64,000 bases of DNA from Flavihumibacter soli. GTDB lineage: Bacteria > Bacteroidota > Bacteroidia > Sphingobacteriales > Sphingobacteriaceae. The notes beneath the pieces are model-generated. The model searched no databases. It saw nothing but the letters and a program-made list of their open reading frames with translations, and was not told the origin of the DNA. Below, piece after piece: positions 27,028-35,491 of this stretch (its first letter is position 1; each line of letters opens with the position of its first letter). The stretch spans positions 1 through 64,000 of the forward strand of contig NZ_JAAFZB010000094.1 of assembly GCF_010692725.1 (NCBI RefSeq), given 5' to 3'. Position numbers and translations under genes: made by a program.

Positions 27028-27771
27028 TTATCTGAGCCTTAGTTGATCAAGATCTTCAGGCTGCCCGTTAAATACGTTCATATCCACCAGGTGCCTGATA
27101 CCATTTACCCGGGCTTTGTCAGAGTGCTGCCAGAATTCCCACATAGTGTTTCCGGAAAGCGGTTTGAGCCTGGGGCGATAATAATGGGCTATCCATAGAG
27201 GGTAACCATGAAAGTTGGCAGCAAGATTATCTTCATAAAATTTATAGCCGGAGTAGATGATCGGTTTTACCCCTAAGCTTTTCTCCACCTCGTCGACAAA
27301 TGACTTCAGGTTCGCGTTGAATTTCGCTTCAGACTCTTTGCCGCGTTCTTCCACATCAACAACCGGCAATAGATCGCCCTTCTCAAAATTGACCGTTTGC
27401 AGGAAGAAGCGAGCCTGCCAATATCCTGATTTACCGGGTTTGAAATAGTGATAGGCGCCGCGTATAATGCCGGCCCGGGCAGACTCCCGCCAGTTACGCT
27501 GAAATCGCGGATCGGCCAGAAGAACACCTTCCGTAGCTTTGATGAAAGAAAAGTGAATCTTCACATCATCATCTTCCATTGACGCTATCTTATCCCAATT
27601 AATTAGCCCCTGATACCAACTCACATCGATACCATGAATAATGAAACCACTGGGTATCCTGATCTTATACGAACTGTAATGCGGGTAATTCTCATCTGAC
27701 AGCGGGCTTGCCAGCCATTGCAGGGTAGCCACAGCACGCGAATAAATCTTACCGTAATAAAAAGGGATCAA
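27028..27771 (-). CDS. GH25 lysozyme family protein, membrane anchored, uncertain start
   Basis: A muramidase of glycoside hydrolase family 25 (cleaves the MurNAc-GlcNAc bond). The catalytic barrel starts at HGIDVSWYQG and has VVDVEERG, the Asp-x-Glu pair; IIYSGYKFYE and LWIAHYYRP complete the family. The coordinates use a TTG at 27771, the first standard start, giving 247 residues. However that TTG lies inside a hydrophobic run. The frame stays open upstream and reads as a basic, Lys/Ser-rich tail (KTSSTRKVKRSKKK) plus a WWW-LLLPLLLLI helix, a standard type II anchor. No ATG, GTG or TTG exists there; a CTG at 27870-27868 (CTG-GCC-ACA) is the best candidate, after a terminator. Confidence 0.85.
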   Translation of the reverse strand: MIPFYYGKIYSRAVATLQWLASPLSDENYPHYSSYKIRIPSGFIIHGIDVSWYQGLINWDKIASMEDDDVKIHFSFIKATEGVLLADPRFQRNWRESARAGIIRGAYHYFKPGKSGYWQARFFLQTVNFEKGDLLPVVDVEERGKESEAKFNANLKSFVDEVEKSLGVKPIIYSGYKFYEDNLAANFHGYPLWIAHYYRPRLKPLSGNTMWEFWQHSDKARVNGIRHLVDMNVFNGQPEDLDQLRLR

Positions 27772-27881
27772 TAATAATAATGGAAGTAATAACCACCACC
27801 ATGAAAACCTGTTAGCCGGCTTCTTTTTTGAGCGTTTGACTTTACGGGTAGAGCTTGTTTTTGTGGCCAGAAGAATAGAAT

Positions 27882-27914
27882 AAAAAATACCTGCAGACTT
27901 TAAGCCTGCAGGTA
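27882..27914 (-). terminator. Intrinsic terminator of the M20 peptidase gene
   Basis: ATACCTGCAG (27887-27896) pairs with CTGCAGGTAT (27905-27914); on the minus strand the hairpin ends in a run of T. It separates the M20 gene from the GH25 gene. Confidence 0.8.
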
Positions 27915-27930
27915 TCCGTAAGAAGATATA

Positions 27931-29301
27931 TTATTTACTTAGTTCTGCAAAATATTTGTGAAACAAGGGAATGGTTTCTATGCCCTTGTAAAAATTGGCG
28001 ATATCATATTTCTCGTTCGGTGAATGCAGATTATCGCTGTCGAGACCGAAGCCCATAAGGACGGTTTTAATACCTAACTCCTTCTCAAATAAAGCTACGA
28101 TCGGAATACTGCCTCCTCCCCTTGTCGGGATCGGATCTTTACCAAATGAGTCTGCAATTGCCTTTTGAGCAGCCCTATAGGCCACACTGTCTGTTGGCGT
28201 AACCACCGGTTCTCCACCATGGTGCGGGGTAACTTTCACTTTGACGTATTTAGGGGCGATCTTCTCGAAATGCTCGGTAAATAGCTTCGTGATCTTATCC
28301 GACTGTTGATTCGGCACAAGACGCATAGAGATTTTAGCGTTCGCTTTAGAAGGTAAAACTGTCTTTGCACCTTCTCCAATATAGCCGCCCCAGATACCAT
28401 TAACTTCTAATGTTGGGCGGGTTCCGGTGCGCTCCAGTGTAGTATAACCTTTCTCACCCCATAATTCTGTCACTCCCAGATCTTCTTTGTATTCCTCCTC
28501 AACAAAGGGCGCCATGTTCAGCGCATCGCGTTCCTCCTGCGTTAAAGCCAGAACATCATCATAGAATCCGGGAATCTGAATATGATTGTTTTCGTCATGC
28601 AGCGAAGCGATAAGCTTCGCAAGAATTGTAGCGGGATTGGCAACGGCACCTCCGTACACTCCCGAATGGAGGTCGCGATTCGGGCCGGTCACTTCAACTT
28701 CAAGGTAAGATAAGCCTCTCAACCCGGTTTCCAATGATGGATTCTCCAGGCTGATCATGGAAGTATCGGAAATAAGAACCACATCAGCCTGCAGCCGCTC
28801 CTTATTTTCCTTTACGAAAATACCCAGGTTGTTTGAACCAACTTCTTCTTCACCTTCGATCATGAACTTCACGTTACATGGTAAGGTGTTAGTTTTCATC
28901 ATCAGTTCGAATGCCTTTACATGCATATAGACCTGTCCCTTATCATCGCAGGCGCCTCTTGCATAGATTTTGCCATCACGAATTGTAGGTTCAAAAGGGG
29001 GCGTCTTCCATAGTTCCAGCGGATCTGGTGGCTGAACATCGTAATGTCCATAAACCAATACTGTAGGTTTGGAAGGATCTATAATTTTTTCAGCATATAC
29101 AATAGGATAACCAGCGGTCTGACAAACTTCGACTTTATCAGCGCCAGCCTCCTTTAGCTTCTCAGCAACGTAGTCAGCCGTTTTCAGAACATCGTCTTTA
29201 TATTTCGGGTCTGCACTAACAGAGGGAAACCTTAGCAATTCGAACAGTTCGTCTAAAAAGCGTTGCTTATTAGCATCTACATATTTTTTTATCTCTTGCA
29301 T
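27931..29301 (-). CDS. M20 family dipeptidase
   Basis: A 456-residue metallopeptidase of the M20 family (carnosinase/PepV-like). Zinc ligands and catalytic residues lie in VLVYGHYDVQPPD (about 83-95), GACDDKGQ, EGEEEVGS (about 154-161) and the late IRTRGGGSIPI-like strand. A lid domain separates them (about 195-310). It should hydrolyse small dipeptides in the cytosol; no signal peptide is present. Terminates at the hairpin at 27882-27914. Confidence 0.9.
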   Translation of the reverse strand: MQEIKKYVDANKQRFLDELFELLRFPSVSADPKYKDDVLKTADYVAEKLKEAGADKVEVCQTAGYPIVYAEKIIDPSKPTVLVYGHYDVQPPDPLELWKTPPFEPTIRDGKIYARGACDDKGQVYMHVKAFELMMKTNTLPCNVKFMIEGEEEVGSNNLGIFVKENKERLQADVVLISDTSMISLENPSLETGLRGLSYLEVEVTGPNRDLHSGVYGGAVANPATILAKLIASLHDENNHIQIPGFYDDVLALTQEERDALNMAPFVEEEYKEDLGVTELWGEKGYTTLERTGTRPTLEVNGIWGGYIGEGAKTVLPSKANAKISMRLVPNQQSDKITKLFTEHFEKIAPKYVKVKVTPHHGGEPVVTPTDSVAYRAAQKAIADSFGKDPIPTRGGGSIPIVALFEKELGIKTVLMGFGLDSDNLHSPNEKYDIANFYKGIETIPLFHKYFAELSK

Positions 29302-29750
29302 TTTTCAATGTTTTAAGCAAATATATAAATCTATTAACGGCAATTCAGTCTCACTGCTATTTATAGGCAATAATCTTTTAATACCCCATTACTGCAAAAA
29401 ACCTTTGACATAACGCCAAAAAATCAAAGGTCTGCAGAATCAGTATGCGGCTTTGTTCGGTGATTCTTCCGGTTTGCGAGTGTATTAATTCAGCCCGCGG
29501 AACTCCTAAGAATTTGTCACCTTCTGTTAAATGTTAATGTCTGTAGTCATATACGGATTTATTACCCTGGATATGCGCAAAGCCATTGATAGGACTCTCC
29601 ATTTGCCAGCCTGCGATTTACCGCAGAAAGGTATAACAGAAAGAAAAACCAAAAAGGCCTTCGCATCAGAATAAACAATTATATTCCTCTACAACTACTG
29701 AAAAATAAGGCGTTTATGTTAGTTTATGTATATTTTAAATTGAACTTGTT
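29302..29750. other. Intergenic region downstream of the lipoprotein array
   Basis: About 450 bases between the M20 gene start and the first array gene. It holds the probable array terminator near 29401-29431. A 47-codon plus-strand frame beginning at the ATG near 29531 has no supporting features and was not called. No RNA gene or mobile element was recognised. Confidence 0.5.
29395..29431 (-). terminator. Candidate terminator of the small lipoprotein array
   Basis: ACCTTTGA (29401-29408) pairs with TCAAAGGT (29424-29431). On the minus strand the stem is followed by TTTTTTGC. It is the first clear minus-strand hairpin with T run after gene A, about 320 bases beyond that gene's stop. Confidence 0.5.
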
Positions 29751-29885
29751 TTAGTCCCACTGGGTCGTGTCTTTCTTGTTAGATACCTTAACAGCGTTAG
29801 AATCAGGCTGAGCACCCTCTTCCTTCTTGCAGGAAGTAATACCTAAAACAGCAAATGCGATAACGGCTAATAATACTTTTTTCAT
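29751..29885 (-). CDS. Small array lipoprotein A (44 aa)
   Basis: Last (3') member of the tandem family. It reads MKKVLLAVIAFAV, then GITSCKKEEGAQPDSNAV, KVSNKKDTTQWD. Signal peptide with lipobox GITSC (Cys19), mature part 26 residues. It differs from copies B and C mainly by one residue less before AV. Function unknown; see the array finding. Gap to copy B is 64 bases and contains a partial duplicate of the gene end. Confidence 0.85.
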   Translation of the reverse strand: MKKVLLAVIAFAVLGITSCKKEEGAQPDSNAVKVSNKKDTTQWD

Positions 29886-29931
29886 AATGAATCTTATGTT
29901 TTGAGAGCTTGTTAATTGAGTTTATATGTTA

Positions 29932-29945
29932 TTAATCCCACTGGT
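29932..29945 (-). repeat. Partial duplicate of the array gene 3' end
   Basis: TTAATCCCACTGG copies the last codons of the array genes (complement of QWD-stop) 18 bases before the true end of gene B. It looks like a relic of unequal duplication. Confidence 0.55.
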
Positions 29946-29949
29946 CTTA

Positions 29950-30087
29950 TTAGTCCCACTGAGTAGTGTCCTTTTTGTTCGATACTTTAACAGTGTTCGT
30001 AGAGTCAGGTTGAGCACCTTCTTCTTTCTTGCAGGAAGTAATACCTAAAACAGCAAATGCGATAACGGCTAATAATACTTTTTTCAT
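29950..30087 (-). CDS. Small array lipoprotein B (45 aa)
   Basis: Second member from the 3' end. Signal peptide identical to copy A with lipobox GITSC; mature part runs CKKEEGAQPDSTNTV to KVSNKKDTTQWD. Codons differ from A by silent changes (for example Thr codons before QWD are ACT ACT rather than ACG ACC), showing the frame is under protein-level selection. 49 bases separate it from copy C. Confidence 0.85.
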   Translation of the reverse strand: MKKVLLAVIAFAVLGITSCKKEEGAQPDSTNTVKVSNKKDTTQWD

Positions 30088-30136
30088 AATAATCTTGAGT
30101 TTGAGAGTTTGTTAATTGAGAGTCTTTAATGCTTAA

Positions 30137-30274
30137 TTAGTCCCACTGAGTAGTGTCCTTTTTGTTCGATACTTTAACAGTGTTCGTAGAGTCCGGCTGA
30201 GCGCCCTCTTCCTTCTTGCAGGAAGTAATACCTAAAACAGCTAATGCGATAACGGCTAATAATACTTTTTTCAT
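30137..30274 (-). CDS. Small array lipoprotein C (45 aa)
   Basis: Third member. It encodes the same mature peptide as copy B; only a residue in the signal peptide differs (VIALAV instead of VIAFAV). Lipobox GITSC. Flanked by the conserved leader spacer on both sides. Confidence 0.85.
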   Translation of the reverse strand: MKKVLLAVIALAVLGITSCKKEEGAQPDSTNTVKVSNKKDTTQWD

Positions 30275-30320
30275 GTTTGATCTTAATGTTTGAGAGTTTG
30301 TTAATTTGATTTTTTAGTGA

Positions 30321-30452
30321 TTAGTCCCACTGGGTAGTATCTTTTTTGTTCATTACAGTGTTCTTAGAGTCGGGCTGAGCGCCTTCTTCTTTCTTACAGG
30401 AGGTCATTCCTATAATTACTAATGCAATTACAGATAGTAATACTTTTTTCAT
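30321..30452 (-). CDS. Small array lipoprotein D (43 aa)
   Basis: Fourth member. Signal peptide MKKVLLSVIALVIIGMTSC; mature part CKKEEGAQPDSKNTV, then MNKKDTTQWD. Compared with A-C and F-G it lacks the two residues KV after Val and has Met instead, so the mature peptide is 25 residues. Nearly identical to copy E in both gene and spacer. Confidence 0.85.
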   Translation of the reverse strand: MKKVLLSVIALVIIGMTSCKKEEGAQPDSKNTVMNKKDTTQWD

Positions 30453-30498
30453 GTTGAATCTTAATGTATGAGAGTTTGTTAATTTGATATTTTAGTGA

Positions 30499-30630
30499 TT
30501 AGTCCCACTGCGTAGTATCCTTTTTGTTCATTACAGTGTTCGTAGCGTCCGGCTGAGCACCTTCCTCTTTCTTACAGGATGTCATTCCAATAATCACCAA
30601 TGCGATTACAGATAGTAATACTTTTTTCAT
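30499..30630 (-). CDS. Small array lipoprotein E (43 aa)
   Basis: Fifth member, sister of D: same signal peptide and the same shortened core (TVMNKKDTTQWD). The variable segment reads PDATN. Silent differences from D include CTC for TTC and ACG for ACC complements. 53 bases to copy F. Confidence 0.85.
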   Translation of the reverse strand: MKKVLLSVIALVIIGMTSCKKEEGAQPDATNTVMNKKDTTQWD

Positions 30631-30683
30631 ATTGAATATTGTGTTTGAGAGATTGTTAATTTACTACAAGGTGGGGGACAGGA

Positions 30684-30824
30684 TTAATCCCACTGAGTTG
30701 TATCCTTTTTGTTCAATACTTTAACAGCATTGTTCTTAGAATCTGGTTGAGCGCCTTCTTCTTTCTTGCAGGAAGTGATACCTAAAACAGATAATACGAT
30801 AACGGCTAATAATACTTTTTTCAT
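30684..30824 (-). CDS. Small array lipoprotein F (46 aa)
   Basis: Sixth member. Signal peptide MKKVLLAVIVLSVLGITSC; mature CKKEEGAQPDSKNNAV, KVLNKKDTTQWD (28 residues). The KVL core instead of KVS groups it with copy G. Confidence 0.85.
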   Translation of the reverse strand: MKKVLLAVIVLSVLGITSCKKEEGAQPDSKNNAVKVLNKKDTTQWD

Positions 30825-30880
30825 GTTGGGTCTTGGCTTTTGAGTGTTGGTTGATTTTAAGTCTTTAATGATTTAGATTA

Positions 30881-31021
30881 CTAATCCCATTGGGTAGTAT
30901 CTTTCTTGTTCAATACTTTCACTGCACTGTTTTTAGTTTCAGGCTGAGCACCTTCTTCTTTCTTACAGGAACTCATTCCTATTACCACCATTGCGATTAC
31001 CGCTAATAATACTTTTTTCAT
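30881..31021 (-). CDS. Small array lipoprotein G (46 aa), first of the array
   Basis: First gene after the array promoter. Signal peptide MKKVLLAVIAMVVIGMSSC; mature CKKEEGAQPETKNSAV, KVLNKKDTTQWD. It ends with tandem stops (TAG then TAA). Its 5' leader has a version of the conserved spacer (CTCTCAAGCATTAAG). Function unknown; Cys-Lys-Lys-Glu-Glu after the lipobox resembles the surface-export signal of Bacteroidota lipoproteins. Confidence 0.85.
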   Translation of the reverse strand: MKKVLLAVIAMVVIGMSSCKKEEGAQPETKNSAVKVLNKKDTTQWD

Positions 31022-31090
31022 GTTTAGTTCTTAATGCTTGAGAGTTGCTAATTTGTTTAACTGCTTACTTATTTAGTAAATTCTGTTAAC

Positions 31091-31119
31091 CAAATATATA
31101 AGATTAACAATACATACAA
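31091..31119 (-). promoter_or_regulatory. Promoter of the lipoprotein array
   Basis: On the minus strand: TTG (complement of 31117-31119), 18 bases, TATATTTG (complement of 31091-31098), a full Bacteroidota -33/-7 match. It lies about 70 bases before the ATG of gene G. No equally good promoter was found inside the array, so the array is probably one transcript. Confidence 0.6.
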
Positions 31120-31135
31120 GAATTATTTTTATTTT

Positions 31136-31167
31136 TTGTTAACCATAAGGGAATTCGTTTATATTTG
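31136..31167 (+). promoter_or_regulatory. Promoter of the 31179 regulator-like gene
   Basis: TTG (31136-31138), 21 bases, TATATTTG (31160-31167), then ATG at 31179 only 12 bases on. Its -7 box is the mirror copy of the array promoter's. Confidence 0.55.
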
Positions 31168-31178
31168 GTTAGCAATTT

Positions 31179-31592
31179 ATGTCAATTAAGTTAACAGACA
31201 AACAACTACAATTATTAATTAACGCCCTTCATAACCGCGTTAATGAGCTTAATGACATACTTAACCCACTCTTAACCGAGTTAGCGGAACACGAAAAATT
31301 TCTTGCTGAATATAGTAATAAGACGCTAACCTCTTTTACATTAGGAGAAAAAAACCAATCATTTGAGTTTCTTTCATGGTCAAAAAAAATTGTCAAAGTA
31401 CTTTACGACCACGATAAATTCATGACAACAAACGAAATTGTTGCGGAAATTGTTAAACGGATTCCAGAGTTAGCAGAGGAGTACAGTACACGATCATCAA
31501 TAGCCTCTATCCTTAGCCGCCGCTCCGGTAAACTATTTAAGAAACTGGATGATAAATATGGCCTGATTGAATGGGCCGATAACAGGGGTTAA
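31179..31592 (+). CDS. Putative coiled-coil / winged-helix-like regulator
   Basis: A 137-residue protein I do not recognise as a named family. Residues ~8-45 look like a coiled coil (LINALHNRVNELNDILNPLL onward). Residues ~65-135 have the helix-helix-helix-strand pattern of a winged-helix or HARE-HTH-like domain: SKKIVKVLYDHDKFMTTNEI, then TRSSIASILSRRSGKLFKKL and a final YGLIEW strand. Basic residues cluster in the putative recognition helix. It is divergent from the lipoprotein array and shares the inverted repeat, so it is a candidate autoregulator of that array. DNA binding is inference. Confidence 0.7.
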   Translation: MSIKLTDKQLQLLINALHNRVNELNDILNPLLTELAEHEKFLAEYSNKTLTSFTLGEKNQSFEFLSWSKKIVKVLYDHDKFMTTNEIVAEIVKRIPELAEEYSTRSSIASILSRRSGKLFKKLDDKYGLIEWADNRG

Positions 31593-31681
31593 AACAGGTC
31601 CTCAATTGCTTAAACCTTTATTTGGCAAACTCACTCTTAATACGTAACCTTACGTCGCCATTTAAAATATTGTTTGAGCTG

Positions 31682-33124
31682 ATGAGGTATTTTGCGTTTG
31701 TAATTATTCTCCTTTCCGTCTTTAATCCAGCATTTTCCAAGGACCCGTCGTCCGCACTCATAGATACTTTAGAGATAATTAAGCTGAATCAGGCTGGTTA
31801 TGAACACCGTCTAATTGATCCGAATCAAACGCTGGCCTACGGAAAGAAGGCACTTCAATTATCTAAAAAAGCAAATTATTTAAATGGTATAGCGGAAGCT
31901 TACCGTATCATTGGGATAGGCAGTTCTTATCATAACCAGAATGAAATTGCTATTGAATCCTATCTTAACTCCCTGAGCTACTTTCAAAAAAATGGAAATA
32001 AAGAGGGAGAAGCAAAAGTCTACAACAACATCGGGAACCTTTACATCAGTGTCGATTTTGATAAAAGCCTGGAATATTTTCAAAAGTCGCTGAAGATAGC
32101 CCGGGAGCTTCAGATAAAGGGACTTATTGCCGGACTAAATCTCAATATCGGCACAGTGTACCAAAAGAAACATTTATTTAACCAGGCCCTAAAAAGTTAC
32201 CAGGAAAGTTTCGCCAATTTTTCAGAGATCGGCAATTCCACCGGCGTGACACAGTGCCTTCAAAATATTGGGGTCGCATATTTTAAGCTGAACCTGATTA
32301 AAGACTCTGAAAACTATTTGAAGCAGGCGATTAACAAAGCCAAGGAAAACGACCTGAACTTTGTGGTTGCCGGAAGTAACCTGACGTTGTCTTCCGTTTA
32401 CATTGCCAAGGGAGATTTTCAAGCTGCTCAGAAATCCATTGATGAAGGTATCGCCTATTCACGGATCATCCAGGATTCCAGGCTGGAATACGATTTCACT
32501 TTCACTCTTTTTGAACTTGAGAACCGAAAAAAGAATTATAAGGGAGCCCTGGGATATCTAAAGCAGATATACACCCAGGACAGCCTGACATATAAAAATA
32601 ACGAATCGACAAAGCTAACCTTAAGGGATAAACAGTATCGCCAGCAAGCCAAACAGTTGGAGAACGAACGAATCATCCTGGAACAAAAGTATACGAAGAC
32701 TTTATTCTGGGCAATCAGCGCGGTTACTGCCCTTGCATTTTTTGCCATCTTCCTTCTTATCAGAAACAACCGCAAATCAAATAAGACCAATAAACAATTG
32801 ATCAGACTTAACCAGGAGGTTCTTCAGCAAAAAGAAGATCTGGACAGGATTAATCAAAGCCTGGAAGAGATCATTGATGAACGTACGCGTGATCTGAAGA
32901 TTAAGAACAATAAACTTTCCGAATACTCCTCTCACCTATCCCACCAGATACGAGGTCCGGTGGCTACTATTAAAGGACTGTTAATTCTTGAAACGGATAA
33001 CCTGATTGAACACGAGGAACTGGTCGAACAACTGCAGGTATGTATACAGGACATTGATAACAAGATCCTGAATATTAATGAAACCCTGAATAACAGCTCT
33101 AAACACAGTTTGCATTCCGAATGA
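31682..33124 (+). CDS. TPR membrane protein with kinase-like phosphoacceptor but no ATPase domain
   Basis: About 480 residues. A signal peptide or anchor (YFAFVIILLSVFNPAFS) leads into TPR-like repeats (about 60-320; AKVYNNIGNLYISVDFDKSL is clear), a membrane helix (LFWAISAVTALAFFAIFLLI, about 340-360) and a coiled coil. The C-terminal part has HLSHQIRGPVATIKGLLIL, a HisKA-type H-box seen in Bacteroidota TPR kinases. The frame then ends after ~60 residues with no HATPase_c domain, and none follows in other frames. It may be a partner kinase scaffold or phosphoacceptor. Start set at the ATG at 31682; the TTG at 31622 would add 20 residues. Confidence 0.75.
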   Translation: MRYFAFVIILLSVFNPAFSKDPSSALIDTLEIIKLNQAGYEHRLIDPNQTLAYGKKALQLSKKANYLNGIAEAYRIIGIGSSYHNQNEIAIESYLNSLSYFQKNGNKEGEAKVYNNIGNLYISVDFDKSLEYFQKSLKIARELQIKGLIAGLNLNIGTVYQKKHLFNQALKSYQESFANFSEIGNSTGVTQCLQNIGVAYFKLNLIKDSENYLKQAINKAKENDLNFVVAGSNLTLSSVYIAKGDFQAAQKSIDEGIAYSRIIQDSRLEYDFTFTLFELENRKKNYKGALGYLKQIYTQDSLTYKNNESTKLTLRDKQYRQQAKQLENERIILEQKYTKTLFWAISAVTALAFFAIFLLIRNNRKSNKTNKQLIRLNQEVLQQKEDLDRINQSLEEIIDERTRDLKIKNNKLSEYSSHLSHQIRGPVATIKGLLILETDNLIEHEELVEQLQVCIQDIDNKILNINETLNNSSKHSLHSE

Positions 33125-33205
33125 TTTTCCCTTCCCGTTTTTACAAACTGGTTGAAAACTATCCCGACTCTTCTCAAATCTCTTTCTTAATTTAGCAGCC
33201 AAAAA

Positions 33206-33211
33206 AAGGAG
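33206..33211 (+). promoter_or_regulatory. Strong Shine-Dalgarno site deciding a TTG start
   Basis: AAGGAG lies 6 bases before TTG at 33218 of the uvrD-like gene. It is one of the few strong Shine-Dalgarno matches seen in the window and supports the TTG as the true start. Confidence 0.5.
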
Positions 33212-33217
33212 CGGATT

Positions 33218-35491
33218 TTGAATTATTTACAGGGATTAAATCCTTCGCAGCAGGCGGCAGTGAAACAGACAGAGGGACCAGTGATGATTGTGGCCGGTGC
33301 GGGCTCTGGTAAAACGCGGGTGATCACCTGCCGGGTGGCTTACCTGATTGAAAAGGGTGTCGACCCTTTCAATATTCTGGTACTCACCTTTACGAATAAG
33401 GCGGCCAAAGAAATGCGGGAGCGGATCACCAAGGTTGTCGGTTCGGAAGCCAAGAATATCTGGATGGGAACTTTCCACTCTGTATTTGCCAAAATATTGC
33501 GGGTGGAGGCTACAAAGATCGGATACCCGTCGAATTTCACCATTTATGATACTGACGACAGCAAAAGCCTGATCAGGGCGATCCTGAAAGAACAGCAGCT
33601 TGACGATAAATTATATAACGCCAATTTCGTTTACAACAGGATCTCGACTGCAAAGAACAATCTTATTTCACCTGCGGAATACCAGAAGAACGAGCATATC
33701 CAGGCTGAAGACTTTTCGACCGGCCGGGGGAAGCTTGGCGAGATCTACCAGATTTATACCCAGCGCTGTTTCAAGGCAGGCGCAATGGATTTTGATGATC
33801 TGCTGTTTAAAACAAACGTACTGTTAAGAGAACATGCTGATGTTCTTTATAAATACCAGAACAAGTTTAAGTTCCTGATGGTAGATGAGTACCAGGATAC
33901 AAATTTTTCCCAGTACCTGATCGTTAAGCGCCTGGCAGCCATTAATGAAAATATCTGTGTCGTGGGTGATGATGCGCAGAGCATTTATGCTTTCCGGGGG
34001 GCAAACATTCAGAACATCCTGAATTTTGAGAAGGATTATCCGGATCTGAAGGTTTTTAAACTTGAGCAGAACTACCGTTCTACCCAGAATATAGTGAATG
34101 TCGCCAACAGCATTATCGCCAACAATAAGAACCAGCTCAAGAAAAATGTATTCTCTGAAAATGAAACCGGCGATAAGATCAAGGTTTTACGTGCATTCAG
34201 CGATAATGAAGAAGGAAAGGTAATTGCCGAGGCAATTGTCCAGGAGCGGGGAAACAAGGGTTGCCCCTATCATGACTTTGCTATTCTGTACAGAACAAAT
34301 GCTCAGTCTAGATCTATGGAGGAGGCCCTGCGCAAACTCAATGTTCCATATAAGATCTACGGCGGTCTTTCTTTCTACCAGCGTAAGGAGATCAAGGACC
34401 TGATCGCCTACTTCCGCCTTACTTTTAATCCTAATGACGAGGAAGCAATCAAAAGGGTTATCAACTATCCGCGGCGGGGAATCGGCGACACGACGTTGGA
34501 ACGTATCATTATCGCGGCCGACCAGCATAACCTGACCATATGGGACATTATTTGCGAAGCTCCTAAATATCTGGACTCCAGAAGCTCTGGTGCCGTGAGC
34601 ATCTTCGCAACCCTCATCCAGAGCTTCCAGGTAATGGCGAAGACGCATTCAGCTTATGATACCGCACTTCACATTGCGCAGCATTCGACCTTATTAAAAG
34701 ACCTCTATGCTGACAAATCTGTAGAAGGCCTGAGCAGGTATGAAAACATACAGGAACTTTTAAATGGTATAAAAGAATTCAGTGAGCGGGAGGATATTGA
34801 AGAGCGCGGACTGGATATATTTATGCAGGACGTTGCTTTGCTCACAAACGACGATAATGACAAAAACCCGAATGCGGATACTGTCTCATTGATGACCATA
34901 CATTCGGCCAAGGGACTTGAGTTCGACAACGTGTTTGTGGTCGGTTTGGAAGAGAATTTATTTCCTTCACAAATGTCGTTGAGTTCACGCACCGATCTGG
35001 AGGAAGAAAGACGCCTGTTTTATGTAGCGACCACCAGGGCTGGTAAAAAACTAACCCTCTCCTACGCAACTTCACGATACCGCTGGGGAACACTGACCAG
35101 CTGTGAGCCGAGCCGTTTTCTGGATGAAATTGATGCGCAATACCTGGAGCTTGATTTCAAACCGCAGCAAAAAGCGACCGGAAATCCGTTCTTTGATAAT
35201 GAACGCTCGGCATGGCAAGAGAAGGAAACATTCAGCAGGCCCAAACCAGCGACCGTTCAAAAGACAACTGCTATGCTGCCAAAGGCACATGTACCGAGTG
35301 AAGGCTTTTCACCGAGCGATACCTCGAAGCTACAGGTAGGTATGGAAGTAGAACACGAAAGGTTCGGCTATGGCAAGGTTATCAATATGGAAGGTAATAA
35401 ACCCGACATTAAGGCAACCATCTTTTTTAAGGACCTCGGTCAGAAACAGCTCTTATTGAAATTCGCGAAACTCAGAATAGTTCCATCATAA
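33218..35491 (+). CDS. UvrD/PcrA/Rep-type ATP-dependent DNA helicase
   Basis: A 757-residue SF1A 3'-5' helicase for DNA repair and replication restart. Walker A VAGAGSGKTR (about 26-35), Q-motif LNPSQQAAV at the N terminus, Walker B VDEYQDTN (about 218-225), GDDAQSIYAFRGA, QNYRSTQNI, and motif V-VI LMTIHSAKGLEFDNVFVVGL and YVATTRA. The tail (about 660-757) ends in a domain with VGMEVEHERFGYGKVINMEG, a Tudor-like C-terminal part known in PcrA/UvrD that binds RNA polymerase. Starts with TTG preceded by AAGGAG. UvrD versus PcrA cannot be named with certainty. Confidence 0.95.
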   Translation: MNYLQGLNPSQQAAVKQTEGPVMIVAGAGSGKTRVITCRVAYLIEKGVDPFNILVLTFTNKAAKEMRERITKVVGSEAKNIWMGTFHSVFAKILRVEATKIGYPSNFTIYDTDDSKSLIRAILKEQQLDDKLYNANFVYNRISTAKNNLISPAEYQKNEHIQAEDFSTGRGKLGEIYQIYTQRCFKAGAMDFDDLLFKTNVLLREHADVLYKYQNKFKFLMVDEYQDTNFSQYLIVKRLAAINENICVVGDDAQSIYAFRGANIQNILNFEKDYPDLKVFKLEQNYRSTQNIVNVANSIIANNKNQLKKNVFSENETGDKIKVLRAFSDNEEGKVIAEAIVQERGNKGCPYHDFAILYRTNAQSRSMEEALRKLNVPYKIYGGLSFYQRKEIKDLIAYFRLTFNPNDEEAIKRVINYPRRGIGDTTLERIIIAADQHNLTIWDIICEAPKYLDSRSSGAVSIFATLIQSFQVMAKTHSAYDTALHIAQHSTLLKDLYADKSVEGLSRYENIQELLNGIKEFSEREDIEERGLDIFMQDVALLTNDDNDKNPNADTVSLMTIHSAKGLEFDNVFVVGLEENLFPSQMSLSSRTDLEEERRLFYVATTRAGKKLTLSYATSRYRWGTLTSCEPSRFLDEIDAQYLELDFKPQQKATGNPFFDNERSAWQEKETFSRPKPATVQKTTAMLPKAHVPSEGFSPSDTSKLQVGMEVEHERFGYGKVINMEGNKPDIKATIFFKDLGQKQLLLKFAKLRIVPS

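Follow-up and report, generated by a model that had tools for sequence, protein, structure and literature searches.

Organization of the lipoprotein array and the divergent TPR gene

The analysed DNA, referred to as the window, is a stretch of 64,000 nucleotides from Flavihumibacter soli. Reading out its open reading frames recovered the seven minus-strand ORFs of 43-46 aa which the initial annotation had placed at 29751-31021. Starting from the promoter-proximal end, these candidate precursor lipoproteins are located at 30881-31021 (copy 1; 46 aa, with the tail NKKDTTQWD), 30684-30824 (copy 2; 46 aa), 30499-30630 (copy 3; 43 aa), 30321-30452 (copy 4; 43 aa), 30137-30274 (copy 5; 45 aa), 29950-30087 (copy 6; 45 aa) and 29751-29885 (copy 7; 44 aa). 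MKKVLL, the lipobox G(I/M)(T/S)SC, CKKEEGAQP and NKKDTTQWD were each present in all seven ORFs, and the three linker subtypes of the copies matched the earlier description. The tandem period determined with TRF was 178 bp. A genome-wide search revealed no further array copies in the same genome; five other matches had E values of 0.06-3.4 and were located within open frames of 279-572 aa. After the stop codon of copy 6, at 29932-29944 on the minus strand, a second tail-end fragment (CCAGTGGGATTAA) was noticed, which may have been left behind by unequal crossing-over between copies.

A promoter-like site precedes the array at 31091-31119 on the minus strand (TTG-18-TATATTTG; a relaxed pattern of the Bacteroidota promoter consensus). 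In a scan of positions 29501-33200 with this consensus, no promoter-like sites were detected between the copies, and one extra relaxed minus-strand match was located at 32714, inside the TPR gene described below. As a single promoter-like site lies ahead of the array and none between its copies, the seven genes probably form one operon. A divergent promoter-like site on the plus strand (31135-31167; TTTG-21-TATATTTG) lies ahead of the genes for an HTH-like protein and the TPR protein. An RNA element was rejected as a candidate, no Rfam family reaching its gathering score in 27500-33500.

Substitutions among the seven copies were counted by the Nei-Gojobori method. Pooled over the 21 pairs, which are non-independent, pS was 0.476 and pN was 0.074 (pN/pS 0.16), and the selection at the protein level that had been claimed for the array was thus corroborated. 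For the tail NKKDTTQWD, none of 483 nonsynonymous site-comparisons differed as compared to 76 of 84 synonymous ones; for KKEEGAQP the respective values were 0 of 406 and 65 of 98. The linker between these two elements was relaxed (pS 0.236, pN 0.178). The tail of the array is under extreme purifying selection and the head is also strongly selected, a substitution pattern which excludes non-coding drift.

The TPR protein, our proposed receptor, is encoded on the plus strand at 31682-33124. As read from its sequence, it consists of a signal peptide, a periplasmic TPR superhelix (residues ~22-300), one transmembrane helix, a coiled coil and a HisKA-like hairpin; the periplasmic placement of the TPR part is predicted from the signal peptide, the later transmembrane helix and the basic residues behind the latter. 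Pfam searches of the protein yielded a match to TPR_12 (1e-20), a weak C-terminal match to HisKA under the gathering score (E 3e-4) and no match to a HATPase domain. The 110 TPR orthologues are 458-514 aa long and stop shortly past the HisKA-like hairpin, and H421 of the H-box is invariant among 46 diverse orthologues. The AF2 model of the protein had a pLDDT of 86.8, with values mostly above 90 in the TPR superhelix. Its nearest solved folds were LGN complexes, Rap with and without peptide, NprR-NprX and KLC1 with cargo peptides; TPR proteins of other function (APC/C, Tom70) were also on the list. The Rap- and NprR-type folds were matched with VIA-align Z values of 23-25 over 273-289 residues, and sequence profiles likewise matched the protein to Rap, NprR and KLC, although a fold shared with Rap and NprR does not by itself establish function. 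Four conserved residues of the A helices, R75, N116, N155 and N195 (0.93-1.00), are read by us, on the basis of the TPR register, as a ladder lining the groove; conserved groove asparagines are also TPR-consensus residues.

The HTH-like protein of 137 aa (31179-31592, plus strand) is encoded in the divergent region and gave a sub-threshold HARE-HTH match. Of the other 110 TPR loci, just two share this protein, L042 (genome G006) and L045 (genome G015). Longer TPR paralogues resembling full kinases occur in Daejeonella and, as judged by eye, adjoin genes for LytTR-like response regulators in all but one of three stretches (LytTR-like neighbours at L287:2007-4609, plus strand, and L288:1648-4577, minus strand; absent at L291). 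Given these kinase-like paralogues next to LytTR-like genes, the TPR protein is probably derived from a full TPR kinase, and regulators of the LytTR-like type are possible partners for the ATPase-less protein. Genome G232 contains three TPR-DHp gene copies, two of them in tandem (L290:113-3212, minus strand; L289:46-1500, plus strand); precursors were not seen in the stretches read, and a Mu-type-transposase-like ORF (by eye) is located near two copies. In genome G509, an ORF with a Cas9-like start (by eye; L312:3-2117, minus strand) lies ~1.5 kb from a TPR paralogue. A phage origin was discarded, as viral contigs gave 40 pattern matches but none of these was confirmed to be a relative of the TPR protein.

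Precursors and TPR genes in related genomes

In a whole-genome search of 60 relatives, tandem homologues were found in several of them, in line with the proposed conservation of the array in Sphingobacteriaceae. Their tails comprise DKRDLGSYD, DQKDNGNWD, AAKTLGSFD, DKKDTTQWD and others. Nine of 12 stretches around the matches place the homologues between an M20 peptidase gene and the divergent TPR gene; of the remaining stretches, L046 and L048 reach one flank only (contig end) and L051 is a different locus. The flanks common to the window and its relatives include the M20 peptidase, the UvrD helicase, the TPR gene and other conserved genes. The syntenic spot holds 1-10 secreted precursors in Daejeonella, Mucilaginibacter, Hufsiella, Arcticibacter and other Sphingobacteriaceae. 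In many relatives, the precursors are Sec-signal proteins of ~60-550 aa which are not lipoproteins and contain head-to-tail nonapeptides similar to the tail, such as (DKHNTGSSDL)n, (DKRTVGTGDLN)n, (AKQDVGQADL)n and (GDKNNLGTADR)n; another example is a 490-aa precursor with a single hexamer present 36 times. The nonapeptides of these non-lipidated multi-unit precursors end in AD or GD in many relatives. Lipoproteins and multi-unit precursors coexist in many Mucilaginibacter operons of up to ten genes, and at L118, L129, L130, L133, L136, L153, L154 and L183 the only precursors are non-lipidated Sec proteins. Since several loci have only non-lipidated precursors, lipidation is optional and not the conserved feature. 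The notion of a functional tail following a lipidated head was therefore upheld in part: lipidation and the WD ending represent one local version only.

Internal repeats were present at 51 of the 106 TPR loci that could be evaluated (see below) and at 44 of 70 named loci, the two sets overlapping; at least two precursors were found at 65 of the 106 loci. Repeat counts are lower bounds in L094, L135 and L208, where masked N stretches inside precursors were read as X, and so are copy numbers where a contig ends within the array (e.g., G006, G014, G020). Concerted evolution was modest: for 29 of 46 loci, within-locus identity was higher than the identity to the closest locus elsewhere. A structural repeat such as a beta-roll was rejected: the AF2 model of a 158-aa precursor, computed from only four sequences, had a mean pLDDT of 48.8 and no strands. 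The motif C-X-K-(D/E)2, described in PMC5080379 as a surface-export signal of Bacteroidota lipoproteins, is present by sequence in all seven window copies (CKKEE) and in its strict form in just 31 of 123 lipoprotein starts across all loci. In genome G018, a further single lipoprotein, whose tail (CRKCTETWDIIEPAPPANP) is related, is encoded at a distance from the TPR locus (L051:6226-6396, plus strand); its gene adjoins patatin-like and HTH-like ORFs (names assigned by eye).

The correspondence between the tail and the repeated unit was assessed with a motif that was trained on 38 units from multi-unit precursors only, which avoided circularity. With the final position omitted, it was then applied to 57 distinct D-ending single-unit lipoproteins from 32 loci devoid of multi-unit precursors. 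The C-terminal 9-mer was the top-scoring mature 9-mer in 45 of the 57 lipoproteins (median 24 windows of nine residues; Mann-Whitney p 2e-27), and the score of NKKDTTQWD equalled the median of the tested set. Loci lacking the module supplied 178 secreted-like ORFs as a control; not one of them scored up to the cut-off when the full motif was applied, none contained at least three repeats and one contained two. At the position of the tryptophan, 145 distinct units had A in 101, W in 18 and G in 15 cases.

The TPR protein was searched in 301 genomes of the family. Matches (E at most 1e-30) were obtained in 121 of them, with only a longer paralogue in G001, G002 and G011. One hundred further stretches were taken on the upstream side of the TPR gene; G095, G113, G114, G116, G122, G208 and G271 were excluded because their TPR match lies at the edge of a contig. 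Precursors were scored by a strict test (motif score of at least 9 or a repeated hexamer) and by a lax test which additionally accepts small lipoproteins. Together with the window there were 111 TPR loci. Five were truncated (three of these still contained precursors), leaving 106 for evaluation. Precursors were detected at 103 of the 106 loci by the lax test and at 84 by the strict test. The three loci without precursor were L158 (contig edge), L169 and L182, and the 19 loci that were positive by the lax test only contain small lipoproteins whose tails are off the motif, for example CRGCGDWDITEPQP or TTTYGE. Among 80 named loci, all 70 with at least 1.2 kb of upstream sequence had a precursor by the lax test; many of these loci resemble assemblies of the main set and so provide names, not independent support. 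The scans of the relatives' stretches and of the named loci covered the divergent strand; a check of both strands located 359 strict precursors in divergent orientation (85 of 111 loci) and two on the TPR strand, the latter among 80 secreted-like ORFs (a 166-aa ORF at L142 and a repeat-like 70-aa ORF at L183). Precursor genes are thus nearly always divergent from the TPR gene, which is a rule but not an absolute one.

Genomes without the TPR gene were represented by 23 genomes, i.e., 20 listed among the 180 no-match genomes plus the three with only a paralogue. The M20 gene was present in 22 of the 23, and its start together with ~1.49 kb of upstream sequence was visible at 20 loci. Strict precursors were found at none of these 20 loci, which indicates that precursor and TPR genes are absent together; the lipobox test alone gave spurious ORFs in three of the 20. 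UvrD was located within 1.1 kb upstream of M20 in nine of the 20 loci, namely at less than 0.5 kb in L265, L266, L268, L272, L280, L283 and L286 and at ~1 kb, with another ORF of ~200 aa in between, in L278 and L279. With distant TPR relatives, none of eight stretches from seven genomes contained a strict precursor (six TPR ORFs of 493-544 aa and two full-length kinases of 659-670 aa; ~0.4 kb upstream in L310), and the same was true for 12 loci of FimS-like kinases. In the samples searched, the peptide half of the module therefore looks confined to Sphingobacteriaceae, and the receptor fold, being found in distant relatives without precursors, is probably older than the peptides.

Correlated divergence and a putative peptide-receptor module

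The TPR protein is 37-75% identical to its orthologues as compared to 81-93% for UvrD and 83-91% for M20 at shared loci. Distance correlations were calculated over 89 loci, since no unit could be assigned at 22 of the 111. The distance between peptides correlated with that between periplasmic domains once the cytoplasmic domain had been removed (partial r 0.42, p 0.0005, n=89), and with that between A helices once the B helices and the cytoplasmic part had been removed (0.28, p 0.001), as opposed to 0.075 (p 0.098) for the B helices. Hence, divergence of the peptide tracks that of the A helices, i.e., the groove helices of the TPR domain. The cytoplasmic part retained a partial correlation with the peptide (0.19, p 0.015), which implies that shared ancestry was incompletely controlled.

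We consider it rather probable that the locus constitutes a module of a peptide ligand and its receptor, pheromone-like and similar to RRNPP systems but acting in the periplasm. We infer export route, processing, binding, signalling and output of this module as follows. The seven lipoproteins would serve as precursors of, or carriers for, the nonapeptide NKKDTTQWD, which once exported would either be released by a protease or be presented on its lipid anchor. It may then bind to the periplasmic TPR domain in its concave groove, and binding would be relayed via the transmembrane helix and the coiled coil into the cytoplasm, where the HisKA-like hairpin carries the invariant histidine. As the protein has no ATPase of its own, the hairpin, a putative phospho-acceptor, would need a kinase or a response regulator as its partner. 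Seven nearly redundant genes would raise the peptide dose, and many relatives would do so by placing 2 to ~36 peptide repeats within one Sec-secreted precursor. Gene amplification and internal repeats, as two routes to a higher dose, would be expected of a signal more than of a scaffold or an enzyme. Because peptide and groove co-diverge from species to species, what the module reports is most likely the state of kin or population, in a pheromone-like manner. Several observations weigh against this proposal. TPR proteins bind many things, and APC/C and Tom70 on the fold list serve other functions. If active, the C-X-K-(D/E)2 signal would place the lipoproteins outside the outer membrane, far from a periplasmic receptor. 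A gene for a processing protease or for secretion was not seen in the interval. Also on the negative side are the TPR loci with no precursor or with a lax-only one, the precursor-free loci of distant TPR relatives and FimS-like kinases, and the ancestry left by the cytoplasmic correlation.

In the initial annotation, the tail was suggested to be displayed on the cell envelope. We judge this less likely than a peptide which is released or presented to the TPR protein, on account of the non-lipidated repeats in relatives and the divergent TPR gene. A broader version of display would be that the precursors are surface or extracellular repeat proteins with tails of adhesive, matrix or decoy function, shown on lipid anchors or within long repeat chains, and that the role of the TPR protein is limited to their regulation or assembly. 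Many repeat proteins have a structural role, divergent pairs often consist of a regulator and its target, and CKKEE in all seven copies fits the export signal. However, many species manage with single copies of 43-46 aa, the repeats were modelled without a confident fold (pLDDT ~41-57, no strands; AF2 from four sequences only), the strict export signal is infrequent among lipoprotein starts, and divergence of the peptide follows the A helices of the TPR protein, which makes this explanation fairly unlikely. The coincidental neighbourhood of a TPR gene and precursors with an unrelated envelope function, both carried between M20 and UvrD, could result from linkage, since one conserved interval holds both; we regard it as improbable in view of the nearly constant divergent orientation, the concentration of the correlated divergence in the A helices, and the nine of 20 loci where M20 and UvrD remain close and both genes are missing.

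Two further explanations assign other roles to the secreted products. The small lipoproteins might alert the TPR sensor when lipidation or sorting fails, in the manner of NlpE or RcsF. Such a trafficking sentinel would agree with the lipobox in all seven copies and with the adjacent sensor-like protein and its periplasmic domain, but is decidedly improbable considering that several loci have only non-lipidated Sec precursors of a like peptide. The layout of a leader followed by a repeated core is reminiscent of modified or antimicrobial peptides (RiPP or bacteriocin-like), for which the TPR protein would be a regulator or immunity factor, and a sub-threshold match to the NCBIfam family NF050125 of chryseobasin-related, MNIO-class RiPPs was obtained (18.7 bits; cut-off 40). 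This possibility is highly improbable: no maturase or exporter was seen by synteny and by eye at the window or at the loci of relatives (Pfam was run for three window flanks and the HTH-like ORF only, the other flanks being judged by eye), the leaders are of the Sec or lipoprotein type, and the units are short and hydrophilic.

Relation to known systems

The precursors had no match above cut-off in Pfam, NCBIfam, PHROGs or PADLOC, consistent with the previous view that they belong to no described family; assignment to a family was abandoned, as the only matches concerned signal peptides or low complexity and were below the cut-off where a library sets one. The PG1828 family (NF050142) likewise consists of short lipoproteins with a similar signal peptide and similar first mature residues. 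Its match of 30.8 bits is below the cut-off of 50 and covers residues 1-32 only, with the conserved tail outside. No paper describing such a peptide-TPR system was found among the open-access papers listed in literature searches.

Peptide pheromones with TPR receptors are not known outside Gram-positive bacteria. In the RRNPP systems of Firmicutes and phages (Rap-Phr, NprR-NprX, AimR-AimP), a small gene for a secreted propeptide lies beside that of a TPR receptor, and the same arrangement of a putative propeptide gene adjoining a TPR gene was found here at 103 (lax) or 84 (strict) of 106 loci, together with a TPR superhelix of the Rap/NprR type (Z 23-25). While RRNPP receptors are cytoplasmic and bind re-imported peptide, the proposed receptor is predicted to be periplasmic, membrane-spanning and equipped with a HisKA-like output; moreover, the host is Gram-negative and the precursors are lipoproteins or long head-to-tail repeats. 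The compartment differs from that of RRNPP and every family cut-off is missed, but the mode of action may resemble that of RRNPP. A large survey of RRNPP systems covered, according to PMC10075063, only complete genomes of Firmicutes.

In layout only, the precursors resemble those of yeast alpha-factor and of animal neuropeptides, which also contain many copies of a short peptide per secreted protein; dibasic spacers are absent here. In kinesin light chain, the TPR groove binds short peptides with Trp or Tyr and Asp or Glu (Z ~21 for the fold); these W-acidic and Y-acidic cargo motifs are described in PMC6214655. That recognition is performed by a eukaryotic cytoplasmic adaptor, whereas the W position of the units described here is mostly A (101 of 145).

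The best named family of the TPR protein was FimS of Porphyromonas gingivalis (NF053520; 53.9 bits, E 9e-15, below the cut-off of 600). FimS likewise combines a periplasmic TPR domain, a transmembrane helix and a kinase-type cytoplasmic part. It is a sensor kinase acting with FimR, in contrast to the TPR protein of the window, which ends after the HisKA-like hairpin and thus lacks the catalytic HATPase domain of canonical sensor kinases. PMC11053733 states that the signal of FimS is unknown and suggests a polypeptide ligand. With a probability that we put slightly below even, Gram-negative Bacteroidota communicate by linear peptides, using pheromones that are lipid-anchored or made in up to ~36 repeats and periplasmic TPR receptors that retain the phospho-acceptor hairpin after loss of the kinase ATPase; groove and peptide would then form species-specific dialects, and FimS-like TPR sensors may be peptide receptors. 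If true, such a periplasmic counterpart of RRNPP would bring signalling by linear peptides to a phylum that ranks among the largest of the Gram-negative bacteria, and the question of the ligand of TPR sensors such as FimS would become directly testable with short, synthesizable peptides encoded adjacent to the receptor gene.
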